64,000 bases of DNA from Rhodopseudomonas palustris (lineage in GTDB: Bacteria; Pseudomonadota; Alphaproteobacteria; Rhizobiales; Xanthobacteraceae), in assembly GCF_003591005.1 (NCBI RefSeq), contig NZ_QYYD01000008.1, positions 1-64,000 of the forward strand, written 5' to 3'. Within the stretch, counting starts at the first letter, position 1. The number at the start of each line of letters is the position of its first letter. Shown here piece after piece: positions 29,205 through 36,417 of this stretch. The notes beneath the pieces were generated by a model. It was not told where the DNA came from. It did no database searches and worked only from the letters and a program-made list of their open reading frames with translations. Both the position numbers and the translations under genes were made by a program.

Positions 29205-30818
29205 CTAAGTACTGCGCGCCCGCGCCAGCGCGTCCGGCGTGTCGATGTCGAGGAAGGCGCCTGCGCCTTCGACCGGCAGCTCGGTGACGGCCTCGGCGTG
29301 CTTGGCGATCAGGTGACGCGCGCCGACGTCGCCGCCGAGCGTCATCAGCTCGGCGAAGAACCGCCGCGACCACAGCACCGGGTTGCCGCGGCGGCCATCC
29401 GCGACCGGGACTACGATCAGCGCGCCACGATCCGGGTCGAACGCGTCGATCAGCCGGTCGAGTAGCTCCGTGCCGACCAGCGGCATGTCGCCGAGGCAGA
29501 CGATGGCGCCATCGGCGTCGTCGCCGACCGCCGCGATGCCAGCCTTCACCGAGGAGGCCAAGCCTTCCGCGTAGTCCGGATTGGGCACGAAGCTGACATC
29601 GAGCCCGGCCAGCGCCGCTTCGACCTGATCGGCCTGATGGCCGGTGACGACGATCGGGCGCGCCGGGCCAGAGCCCGCTTTGCAGGCGAGCACCTGCTCG
29701 GCGACGATGCGGACCAGCGGCTTGCCGTTCAGTTCCGCCAGCAGCTTGTTGGGCCCTCCCATCCGGGTCGAACGGCCGGCGGCGAGAATAACCGCCGCGA
29801 CGTTACGGCCGCCTTCGGCAACCGGCACGCGCGGCTGCGGCCGCGTTACGATCTCCATCAGCAGCCCGCCGACGCCGAGGCCGGTGATATCGGCACGCGT
29901 GACCTCGAGGCCCGCCAGCAGCCGCATCAGCACCCAGTCGAAGCCGTTCTCGACCGGCGACCGCGCGCAGCCCGGCGCGCCGAGCACCGGCACGCCGGAG
30001 GCGCTGCCGATCAGCAACAGATTGCCGGGATCGACCGGCATGCCGAAATGCTCGACACGGCCGCCGACCGCTTCGATCGCCGCCGGGATCACGTCGCGAC
30101 GATCGGCGATCGCCGAGGCGCCGAATACGATCACCAGCTCGGCGCCGAGGCCGAGTAGCTCCTTCAGCGCGCCGGCAAGCTCCGCCTGATCATGCGCGAT
30201 GCGCCGCTCGGCGATGATCTCGGCGCCGGCCGGCGCGAGGCGCTCGGCGGTGACGCGCAGCGTCTTGTCGATTACCTTGGCGGCGAGGCCCGGCAATTGC
30301 GTCGAGACGATGCCGACGCGCTTCACCACATAGGGCGCGACCCGTAGCGCGGCGCCCTGCGCCGCTGCGACGGCGGCATCGCGCAGCCGTGCCTCGACGC
30401 CGAACGGGATCAGCTTCACGGTGCCGATCATCTCGCCTTCGACCACCGGCTTGAATGCCGGCAGCGTCGCGAAGGTGATGGCTTCGTCCACCGCGTTGAC
30501 GCGGTCCACCGCGGCGCGGTCGATCACCAGCACGCCGGCGCGGCTTGCGAACAGATTGGCGCGGCCGGTGAACGCGCGCTCGACCTGCGCGCCGTCGCCG
30601 GCGACAGCTTGCGCGACATCACCAGCGGCAACGTCTTCGGAGACGTCGCCGGGCTCGAGCTGCACAACCACGATCTCGGCGACGCCGGCCTTGTCCAGCG
30701 CGGCAACTTCAGCCTCGCCGATCAGCGTGCCCTTCTTCAGCAGCAGGCCGTTCTGGCGCAGCGAATGCACCGCGACGCCGCCGATCGCATCCGCCGGCCG
30801 CCGCGGACCGAACTTCAT
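29205..30818 (-). CDS. MoCo maturation fusion: molybdopterin-binding domain plus MobA/MocA-like nucleotidyltransferase
   Basis: 537 residues in two parts. About 165-330 is a MoeA/MogA-like molybdopterin-binding fold (VGIVSTQLPG, ELVIVFGASAIADRRD). About 339-537 is a MobA-like nucleotidyltransferase (AAVILAAGRSTRMGGPNKLL, VCLGDMPLVG), expected to attach CMP to the molybdenum cofactor, as MocA does for xanthine dehydrogenase family enzymes. Its start overlaps the end of the xdhC gene (ATGA at 30815-30818). It is the last gene of the cox-type cluster and matures the cofactor for the molybdenum subunit, which is itself absent from the window. Confidence 0.88.
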   Translation of the reverse strand: MKFGPRRPADAIGGVAVHSLRQNGLLLKKGTLIGEAEVAALDKAGVAEIVVVQLEPGDVSEDVAAGDVAQAVAGDGAQVERAFTGRANLFASRAGVLVIDRAAVDRVNAVDEAITFATLPAFKPVVEGEMIGTVKLIPFGVEARLRDAAVAAAQGAALRVAPYVVKRVGIVSTQLPGLAAKVIDKTLRVTAERLAPAGAEIIAERRIAHDQAELAGALKELLGLGAELVIVFGASAIADRRDVIPAAIEAVGGRVEHFGMPVDPGNLLLIGSASGVPVLGAPGCARSPVENGFDWVLMRLLAGLEVTRADITGLGVGGLLMEIVTRPQPRVPVAEGGRNVAAVILAAGRSTRMGGPNKLLAELNGKPLVRIVAEQVLACKAGSGPARPIVVTGHQADQVEAALAGLDVSFVPNPDYAEGLASSVKAGIAAVGDDADGAIVCLGDMPLVGTELLDRLIDAFDPDRGALIVVPVADGRRGNPVLWSRRFFAELMTLGGDVGARHLIAKHAEAVTELPVEGAGAFLDIDTPDALARARST

Positions 30819-31516
30819 GCCGCGGCCACTTTCGACGCCGCCGGCAGCCGCAGCATCGCGGTGATCTCGGCCATGATCGAGACCGCAATCTCGGCCGGCG
30901 ACACCGCACCAATGGCGAGGCCGATCGGCGCGTGGATGCGGCCGACATCCGCCTCGCTGGCGCCCTGCTCCTTCAGCCGCTCGACGCGGCGGCCATGCGT
31001 CTTCTTCGAGCCGAGCGCGCCGATATAGAAGCAGTCGCGTTCGAACGCGTGCAGCAGTGCCGGGTCGTCGATCTTCGGATCATGCGTCAGCGCCACGAAG
31101 GCAGTGTAGCGGTCGACGTTGAGCGGCGGCAGCGCGACGTCGGGCCATTCGGCGATCAGCGGCACGTCCGGAAAGCGCTCGGGGCTGGCGAAAGCGGTGC
31201 GCGGATCGACCACGGTGACGTCATAGCCGAGCGAGCGCGCCAGCGGCGCCAGCGCCTGACTGATATGCACGGCGCCGACGATCACCAGCTTGGCGGTCGG
31301 CGCGTAGACGTTGAGAAACAGCTTCCGGCCGTCCGCTTCGATGGTCGCGCTCTTGCCCATGCGCAGCTGCTTGGACAATTCGGCGGCGAGCGGATCGGCC
31401 GCGATATCGGCGGCCTTCACCAGCCGCTGCTCGCCGGTCGCGGTGTCGGTGACGACGATCGCCGGCCGCCGCGCGGCGCGCTCGGCGTTGAGCTGTTGCA
31501 GTGTCTCAAGTTTCAC
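30815..31516 (-). CDS. XdhC/CoxF-like MoCo insertion protein
   Basis: 233 residues. The C-terminal Rossmann-like XdhC_C domain is clear (KLVIVGAVHISQALAPLARSLGYDVTVVDPR, FVALTHDPKID, YIGALGSKKTHGRR). XdhC proteins bind molybdenum cofactor, help add the terminal sulphur ligand and insert it into the apo-enzyme. The N-terminal CoxI-type domain is on a separate polypeptide (31675-31998). Overlaps the downstream maturation gene by four bases. Confidence 0.88.
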   Translation of the reverse strand: MKLETLQQLNAERAARRPAIVVTDTATGEQRLVKAADIAADPLAAELSKQLRMGKSATIEADGRKLFLNVYAPTAKLVIVGAVHISQALAPLARSLGYDVTVVDPRTAFASPERFPDVPLIAEWPDVALPPLNVDRYTAFVALTHDPKIDDPALLHAFERDCFYIGALGSKKTHGRRVERLKEQGASEADVGRIHAPIGLAIGAVSPAEIAVSIMAEITAMLRLPAASKVAAA

Positions 31517-31556
31517 GTCAGCGCCCCACTTCTCTCGTCGCTACTCAGACTCAAAC

Positions 31557-31638
31557 TCCGTCATTGCGAGCGAAGCGAAGCAATCCAGCGTGGTGCACTG
31601 AGCTTCTGGATTGCTTCGCTTCGCTCGCAATGACGGGG
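31557..31638. repeat. Palindromic repeat, family B (inside the cox cluster)
   Basis: Near-perfect inverted ends (CCGTCATTGCGAGCGAAGC and its complement) around GCAATCCAG...CTGGATTGC. It lies between two co-oriented xdhC genes and would form a 35-bp-class stem in the transcript. Noncoding. Confidence 0.85.
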
Positions 31639-31674
31639 GAATTCCTCGTTGTCGGCCACTCTCGACCCAGCAGC

Positions 31675-35218: not shown

Positions 35219-35273
35219 CGAGCTTTCCTAGCTTCCTCGACCCTGGCCAGAAGCAGTAACTATGTGGGCGCGA

Positions 35274-35759
35274 TCAGGCGCGATCGGAATTGGCCATCGC
35301 CTTGGCGCCGGCGGCGATCGACACCACGATGTTCTGATAGCCGGTGCAGCGGCACAGATTGCCCTCGAGCTCTTCGCGAATCGTGGCGTCGGACAGATCG
35401 TGTCCCTTGCGATGCACCAGATCGACCGCTGTCATGATCATGCCGGGCGTGCAGAAGCCGCATTGCAGGCCGTGATGTTCGCGAAACGCTTCCTGCATCG
35501 GATGCAGCGGTGCGCCGTCGGCGGCGAGCCCCTCGATCGTCGTCACTTCGTGGCCGTCCGCCATCACCGCCAGGGTGGTGCAGGACTTCACCGCCTTGCC
35601 GTCGAGATGCACCACGCAGGCGCCGCACTGCGAGGTATCGCAACCGACATGGGTGCCGGTGAGCCGCAGGTTCTCGCGCAGAAACTGCACCAGCAGCGTG
35701 CGCGGGTCGACGTTGGCGGTCACCGGGTTGCCGTTCACGATCAGGGAAATCTTGGCCAT
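35274..35759 (-). CDS. coxS: CoxS-like [2Fe-2S] subunit of a molybdenum hydroxylase
   Basis: 161 residues. N-terminal plant-type ferredoxin domain with Cys40, 45, 48 and 60, and C-terminal helical [2Fe-2S] domain with Cys100, 103, 136 and 138 ([15 protein letters not shown]). All eight cluster ligands are intact, so the subunit should be functional. ATG 35759 starts the protein just before the ferredoxin fold; an open frame to 35900 has no support. First enzyme subunit gene of the cluster. Confidence 0.93.
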
Positions 35760-35952
35760 CGGCCCTCTCGTTGCTTGCGCACCACCGCATTGCACGGCAG
35801 CCACTACGCGCTTTAGTTGTGTTTCTTGAAGATATCTTAGGGGGACCGGCCCGGATCGGCAACCTCGGATCGGAATGCCGGCTGCCGATCCGGCGTGCAC
35901 AACAGCAGCATGATAACGACCACGTGATCAGTTCGGCAGTCGCCTGGCGCGC

Positions 35953-36417
35953 TCAGGCCGCCGCGTTGCCGTTCTGCACCGCCTTGGAAAAGTTGGCGAA
36001 GAATTCGTCGGCGAGCTTCTTGGCTGAGCCGTTGATCAGCCGCTGGCCCAGCTGCGCCAGCTTGCCGCCGATATGCGCCTCGACATCGTAGGACAGCAGC
36101 GTGCCGCCGTCCTTCTCGCTGAGCGCAACCGTCGCACCCCCCTTGGCAAAGCCGGCGACGCCGCCCTCGCCTTCGCCGGTGATCTTGTAGCCGTTCGGCG
36201 GATCGAGATCGCTCAGCGTGACGCGGCCCTTGAAGCGCGCCGACACCGGCCCGACCTTCAACTTGGCGACGGCGCGAAAACCCTCCTGGTCCTCGGTTTT
36301 CTCCAGCTCTTCACAGCCGGGGATGCACTGCTTCAGGACTTCAGGATCGTTGAGTTTGGTCCACACCAGATCTTTCGGCGCGTCCAGCTGGACTTCGCCG
36401 TTCATCGTCATGGCCAT
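35953..36417 (-). CDS. coxG: CoxG-like SRPBCC domain protein
   Basis: 154 residues of the START/Bet v1 fold typical of CoxG: MNGEVQLDAPKDLVWTKLNDPEVLKQCIPGCEEL, VGPVSARFKGRV, and a C-terminal helix. CoxG helps anchor CO dehydrogenase to the membrane in Oligotropha; here the last helix is not strongly hydrophobic, so that role is uncertain. GGAGGGACGATCC precedes ATG 36417. It is the first gene of the cox-type cluster, 193 bases upstream of coxS. Confidence 0.88.
   Translation of the reverse strand: MAMTMNGEVQLDAPKDLVWTKLNDPEVLKQCIPGCEELEKTEDQEGFRAVAKLKVGPVSARFKGRVTLSDLDPPNGYKITGEGEGGVAGFAKGGATVALSEKDGGTLLSYDVEAHIGGKLAQLGQRLINGSAKKLADEFFANFSKAVQNGNAAA

Follow-up and report, generated by a model that had tools for sequence, protein, structure and literature searches.

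Introduction

The usual reading of molybdenum hydroxylases is one operon for one enzyme. The form II CoxL or glyceraldehyde-dehydrogenase-like enzymes are read in this way, as three-gene operons in which an iron-sulfur subunit (S) and a FAD subunit (M) accompany one catalytic large subunit (L) each. Here we examine a 64,000-nucleotide window of Rhodopseudomonas palustris (positions 1 to 64,000 of contig NZ_QYYD01000008.1, assembly GCF_003591005.1), in which a preliminary description had placed a cox-type cluster at 29205-36417 on the minus strand. The cluster resembles the CO dehydrogenase CoxMSL of Oligotropha and Mycobacterium with its CoxDEFG proteins in its S and M families and its relatives of CoxD, CoxE and CoxG, and its candidate Ls, of the same family as CoxL, are encoded elsewhere. 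From comparative sequence analysis we propose, with considerable confidence, that this locus is an electron-transfer and maturation hub into which dispersed, intact catalytic Ls plug.

Roles have been assigned to several of the related proteins. According to passages on Oligotropha in PMC4240915, the Mo site depends on CoxD to become sulfurated, and CoxG is thought to bring the enzyme to the membrane; a section of PMC11962113 describes an archaeal dehydrogenase anchored by CoxG homologues. The large subunit of form I CO dehydrogenase carries the active-site motif (A/S)YRCS(F/L)R, according to a passage in PMC13240472; work cited in part of PMC6794299 suggests that CO is not the substrate of a CoxL-type enzyme without this motif.

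Results

The sole S-M pair without L and the sole Ls without S share one lineage

The window lies on a 205-kb contig (C88) of a 5.62-Mb assembly in 91 contigs (G000, the window's own genome). This genome yielded 22 L, 15 M and 19 S matches. None of the 22 L matches, scored by the MoCoBD_1 domain, fell on C88, in agreement with the preliminary description that the cluster holds no large-subunit gene. The spacing of 55 bp that it gave between S and M (35219-35273, minus strand) was also correct, and this junction is the site of the L gene in other families. C88 carries the only L-less S-M pair; every other S-M has an adjoining L. The search for coxL-like genes without S/M partners that the preliminary description had proposed returned four: only the Ls at C44:70675, C4:11558, C7:35577 and C15:53204 have no S within 8 kb, and all four sit well inside contigs of 87-256 kb.

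In a tree of 20 of the 22 own Ls (the matches on C22 and at C5:136354 were not fetched), these four orphans group with the L of a complete S-L-M set on contig C38 (support 100/100). The C88 M groups with the C38 M, its nearest paralogue, in a tree of all own M (100/100), and the C88 S with the C38 S in a tree of 17 of the 19 S (96/92). Therefore, the sole L-less S-M and the sole S-less Ls share one lineage. Each of the four orphans carries all three Pfam domains (Ald_Xan_dh_C, MoCoBD_1 and MoCoBD_2) and the active-site loop AYRGAGRPE (PFRGAGRPE in C15), with the Glu region present, so that domains and active site both place them in the xanthine oxidase family; the C88 S, with two [2Fe-2S] domains and eight Cys, and the C88 M, with FAD_binding_5, belong there as well. 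Among solved structures, the L nearest to the C44 orphan is CoxL chain 8uem (E 2e-144), and the closest solved relatives of the C88 CoxM are CutM/CoxM of CO dehydrogenase (nearest M structure CutM 1ffv).

Both halves are kept throughout the genus

A C88-type M orthologue occurs in 16 of 16 genus genomes, at 74-97% identity in the other 15. Each is adjoined by an S domain, with no L within 8 kb on the contig; a contig end lies near S-M in the drafts G013, G014 and G015. The same L-less S-M is found in the single-contig genomes G004, G005, G006, G008 and G010, and the complete run G-S-M-D-E-XdhC-XdhC-MocA was read without L in G001, G003, G004 and G010.

Orphan Ls are equally widespread, with 48 candidates spread over all 16 genomes: a single one in G001 and in G003, small genomes with two L matches apiece, three in each of 11 others, four in G000 and, among drafts, five in G013 and four in G015. 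Going beyond the preliminary description, which had considered one large subunit, the S-M pair would thus have several partner Ls here and in most genus genomes, and one in the two small genomes. No S or M was found near any of the 44 candidates examined (4 own and 40 fetched); those outside the 44 are G013 C511 and C668, G014 C170 and G015 C19. The C44-type orphan is present in 16 of 16 genomes, the C4-type in 14 and the C7-type in 13, this last count being without one unfetched G014 candidate, and C15 is confined to the own genome.

Two of these types have recurrent neighbours. The C44-type L is followed by a relative of cytochrome c' in 18 of 18 loci and by a c-type cytochrome relative in 16 of 18, families being assigned from the own copies (L012:11739-13447, G000 C44); by eye, no export signal was seen on the C44-type L or S. 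A dihydrodipicolinate-synthase-family gene stands directly upstream of the C7-type L in 7 of 9 loci (own copy L014:11248-12105, G000 C7, on the same strand as L), which is a possible clue to the substrate of this L.

Orphan Ls of other genera fall into the same clade

Outside the genus, the matches listed include 67 candidate orphan Ls, of which 41 were fetched, and for 31 of these the fetched flanks contain neither S nor M. A wider L tree, made by a quick method, had 81 rows (45 labelled orphan, 23 paired and 13 labelled hub), left out three own Ls beforehand and added Ls of Bradyrhizobium, Afipia, Alsobacter, Bosea, Chelatococcus and others. Two rows labelled orphan, both from L010, lie 1.7 and 6.1 kb from S-M, leaving 43 strict orphans: 4 own, 8 of the 40 fetched from the genus and 31 others. 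All but one of the 43 fall into a single clade (SH-aLRT 100). The remainder of this clade consists of 12 Ls that hub clusters carry between their S and M, two C38-type Ls (of which L140 had been labelled hub) and two plasmid Ls near one S-M; L113, with L placed upstream of its S-M, could not be read in frame and stands outside the tree. The four own orphans hence belong with the Ls that fill the S-M gap in other families. Orphan Ls also occur where the hub retains its L (Bosea LC85 and Alsobacter), a situation that the preliminary description had not foreseen, and therefore the sharing of S-M among Ls seems to be older than L loss.

A few loci bring a clade L close to an S-M. G085 has a C4-type L (57%) on the same strand as an S-M of the hub clade and 2.3 kb upstream of it, with two genes between. 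A Neorhizobium plasmid combines M-S-G with a pair of clade Ls within 10 kb, and a further S or M was not found in 25.8 kb; on Celeribacter and Salipiger plasmids M-S-CoxG was seen and no L was found in 25 kb, the PLSDB gene tables used for plasmids being incomplete. Plasmid protein searches returned many plasmid relatives.

Clade L and clade M co-occur in genomes of the order

We then consider how the two halves are distributed over 150 genomes of the order, taking clade L as a match to the C44 L with E up to 1e-120 and clade M as a match to the C88 M with E up to 1e-60, with at most 7 candidates scored per genome and 20 of the 60 negative genomes listed. The two coincided in 90 genomes, and neither was found alone in any; the weakest best L match among the positive genomes had E 1e-154. 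This pattern is not that of one ancestral split, because positive and negative genomes occur side by side in at least six families. A Fisher test of the co-occurrence takes no account of kinship, and its value does not serve as a probability. C44-type Ls, defined in this survey by E up to 1e-240 with no tree placement, were present in 52 genomes of 19 families, and clade M was present in all 52. A C44-type L lay within 10 kb of clade M in 0 of the 52, the closest pair on one contig being 105 kb apart. In five genomes (G075, G098, G115, G150 and G180) the C44-type L is the only clade L found, all candidates having been scored in G098 and G180 only, and there is one clade M. Its locus is G-S-M without L in all five, and L and M are 1.6-2.5 Mb apart or on another contig.

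These five genomes bear on the alternative that survives best, in which the C88 S-M is a second small-subunit set, or isoform, for the C38 L, and the orphans use the C38 pair or none. Among the own Ls, that of C38 is the closest to the gap-filling L of other families (mostly 65-72% identity), and the S and M of C38 and C88 are nearest paralogues within the own genome, both of which speak for an isoform. However, the C38 L stands directly next to an S and M of its own, the C38 and C88 M are separate lineages on the wider M tree, and the five genomes combine an L-less G-S-M with one C44-type orphan and no other clade L found (all candidates scored in two). We consider this alternative unlikely.

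The same survey speaks to the stand-alone electron module that the preliminary description had offered, a flavin/iron-sulfur carrier working with CoxG and with no molybdenum subunit. Since clade M and clade L occupy the same 90 of 150 genomes, clade M being without clade L in 0 of the 90 at the thresholds used, such a module is unsupported. The molybdenum-cofactor maturation genes kept in the cluster also argue against it. That S and M adjoin CoxG and retain all eight Cys would suit a carrier, and we nonetheless regard one as very improbable.

L seems to have been lost from the S-M junction

Gene order was compared in 83 loci, comprising the best 80 of 585 loci from the genome scan and three plasmid loci; these locus counts and the genus counts are not independent, as L061/G002, L064/G011 and L063/G015 seem to be the same contigs. 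L was absent from 51 loci and present in 32, in the order S-L-M in 29 of those 32. The 40 best-matching loci, from Rhodopseudomonas, Bradyrhizobium, Afipia, Tardiphaga and kin, are all without L, with an S-M gap of 18-75 bp where measured. The distance from S to M is 1-75 bp in 49 L-less loci, versus 2,399-2,652 bp in 24 loci with L between, and an L of about 2.4 kb fills this position in Bosea, Alsobacter, Chelatococcus, Microvirga, Labrys, Phreatobacter and Pseudorhodoplanes. The statement of the preliminary description that related clusters usually carry coxL at this point thus holds for other families, but not for close relatives. S-M is L-less in the Rhodopseudomonas and Bradyrhizobium loci among these 40, and the five single-contig genomes exclude a missing 2.4-kb segment at 35219-35273. 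All eight genes are present in 41 of the 51 L-less loci, and several of the other ten are cut by contig ends.

Consistent with the loss of coxL that the preliminary description had raised, L seems to have disappeared from the S-M junction in the window's lineage. Because the L-less state requires four changes on an M tree of 40 rows (planned with 48; L221, L223, L224, L236, L229, L232, L233 and L237 were dropped as no frame matched), L loss from the cluster is suggested to have happened more than once.

Some loci depart from the usual gene run. L126:8944-14392 is hub-like: two M genes follow one another, L, D and E are absent, and XdhC domains and MocA come next; its genome, G029, holds five candidate orphan Ls, of which three were fetched and all three confirmed. 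Two genomes of about 1.4 Mb keep G-S-M-XdhC-XdhC-MocA (L236 in G160 and L253 in G038); no L, D or E was seen in the sequence fetched there, and each genome gave one clade L match.

S and M are conserved, and XdhC_CoxI and CoxE are mostly single copy

Comparison with eight relatives gave dN of 0.010-0.064 for S and 0.026-0.154 for M against dS of 0.23-0.87, which indicates that S and M are under purifying selection. The eight cluster Cys noted in CoxS by the preliminary description are invariant in 49 of 49 L-less loci with readable S and M frames. A relic, a cluster that has lost L and whose remaining genes, S and M included, now drift, would account for the absence of L from a junction where other families have it, but is highly improbable given this conservation: the low dN relative to dS in all eight comparisons, the Cys, the orthologue in every genus genome and the full set of eight genes in most L-less loci. 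We rejected it on conservation and dN/dS. An assembly gap, that is, a 2.4-kb coxL missing from the record, has a negligible probability and was rejected, as we found no point in its support and the same L-less junction recurs in five single-contig genus genomes and the 40 best-matching loci.

XdhC_CoxI is single copy in 14 of the 16 genus genomes and adjoins S-M in 12 of these; in G014 and G015 it lies beside CoxE on another contig than S-M. Extra matches are a second copy in G009 and a marginal one in G006. A strong CoxE match (E below 1e-70) is likewise single in 15 of 16 genomes, with two in G009. The own genome has one XdhC_CoxI for its 22 L matches. In G009, a second CoxE, XdhC, L, S and M stand together in one place (C49:75348-81455).

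Genes of the window cluster and enzyme class

All eight genes of the cluster lie on the minus strand in the order CoxG, CoxS, CoxM, CoxD, CoxE, two XdhC genes of one domain each and a MocA fusion; domain matches confirmed the families and placements given in the preliminary description. The run opens with a CoxG-like SRPBCC protein of 154 aa (35953-36417; Pfam COXG, E 8e-38). The CoxS-like subunit with two [2Fe-2S] clusters (161 aa, 35274-35759) matches Fer2_2 (E 1e-31) and Fer2 (E 6e-8). Its open frame runs upstream to a GTG at 35900, and the ATG at 35759 is the more likely start because of the position of the domain start and the lengths of relatives. Beyond the junction lie the CoxM-like FAD subunit (283 aa, 34367-35218; FAD_binding_5, E 5e-50), a CoxD-like AAA+ ATPase (302 aa, 33453-34361; AAA_5, with a match to the MadB-family AAA ATPase below its cut-off) and a CoxE-like von Willebrand A protein (405 aa, 32016-33233; VWA_CoxE, E 6e-77). 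The two XdhC-type proteins of the preliminary description are indeed two genes, but they represent the N- and C-terminal domains of one XdhC, split: XdhC_CoxI (114 aa, 31675-32019; E 6e-27) and the Rossmann domain XdhC_C (233 aa, 30815-31516; E 7e-45), each with a GTG start. Finally, a fusion of molybdopterin-binding and MocA-like cytidylyltransferase domains (537 aa, 29205-30818; MoCF_biosynth and NTP_transf_3) matches molybdenum cofactor cytidylyltransferase at E 7e-45, under the NCBIfam cut-off.

The label cox in the preliminary description proved misleading as to enzyme class. None of 20 own-genome Ls and none of 111 fetched Ls carries the form I motif, and an aerobic form I CO dehydrogenase was rejected, the motif being absent from every L examined and no coxL standing beside coxM and coxS in the cluster. 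The best NCBIfam matches of the orphan Ls, S and M are the alpha, gamma and beta subunits of glyceraldehyde dehydrogenase, at scores below the equivalog cut-offs: 217 of 290 bits for S, 213 of 350 for M and 504-592 of 790 for the orphan Ls.

Discussion

As we envisage it, the locus would make one iron-sulfur/FAD pair together with CoxG, CoxD, CoxE, the two-part XdhC and the MocA fusion. The four lone own Ls (C44, C4, C7 and C15) would assemble with the C88 S-M instead of a dedicated pair, each supplying its own substrate site. Electrons would pass from Mo in L to [2Fe-2S] in S, to FAD in M and on to the respiratory chain, perhaps via CoxG, while XdhC and MocA would mature the dispersed Ls. We infer these L-S-M complexes, their electron path and their substrates from sequence evidence that is strong, and a hub serving dispersed Ls best explains, all at once, why L is missing, why S-M is conserved and why orphan Ls exist and co-occur with it. 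Of the alternatives set out in the preliminary description, S and M serving an L encoded elsewhere is thus the most likely, following L loss.

Several observations weigh on the other side. The own genome and many others hold a complete same-clade S-L-M (C38 here), and some orphan Ls could use the C38-type S-M pair. The cytochrome c genes beside the C44-type L may provide another electron path. The window CoxG shows no transmembrane segment or hydrophobic anchor, judged by hydropathy and the lengths of relatives, unlike the CoxG of L010 and L222, which has a hydrophobic anchor. Ten of the 41 fetched candidates from outside the genus have S or M at 3-425 bp (L182, L184, L187, L193, L197, L201, L208, L214, L216 and L217). 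The flank read around orphans was, on its shorter side, 2.4-4.6 kb in 68 of 71 fetched loci and below 0.8 kb at contig ends in the other three (L144, L176 and L180). The survey gave 217 L and 103 M matches in total, with L never fewer than M in any genome; these L-over-M counts are approximate, because the L search yields six matches in the own genome for five clade Ls. Finally, the orphan L192 (G018, Afipia massiliensis, C1:377243) falls outside the clade and is related to C5:12551. In the own genome the L of this type is accompanied by S and M; L192 itself has neither in a flank of about 4 kb.

On a wider scale, we think it likely, if a little less so than the hub function of this locus, that one S-M(-G) and maturation set serves across much of the order as a chassis for interchangeable Ls, so that a new oxidation could be gained via a single L gene, and that loss of the in-cluster L, apparently repeated, left pure hubs such as the window cluster. 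If S-M is shared, annotation by gene neighbourhood overlooks the partners of many orphan Ls, and hubs get mistaken for broken CO dehydrogenases. The substrates of orphan Ls would also be open to assay by co-expression with the hub. Some genomes offer a test bed, as their single C44-type L would depend on one distant S-M.

In our literature searches, which left most subscription journals outside their coverage, we found no paper on one S-M common to several Ls. Compared with CO dehydrogenase CoxMSL, the window cluster is without L, the own orphans carry AYRGAGRPE or PFRGAGRPE instead of the form I motif, and the hub S-M appears to serve several Ls. The form II CoxL and glyceraldehyde-dehydrogenase-like S-L-M enzymes share the active-site loop AYRGAGR, but the L genes of the hub system are dispersed and more numerous than S-M. 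In xanthine dehydrogenase, XdhA (S and M fused) works with XdhB (L), so that S and M likewise form one electron-transfer unit apart from the catalytic chain; unlike in the hub, there is one L per S-M, and we know of no sharing of S-M among these enzymes. A functional parallel is that of ring-hydroxylating oxygenases, which share few ferredoxins and reductases, and of P450s, which share redox partners: many substrate-specific terminal enzymes draw on a common electron supply. Those enzymes are unrelated to the hub system, in which what is shared would be built into the molybdenum hydroxylase complex as integral subunits.

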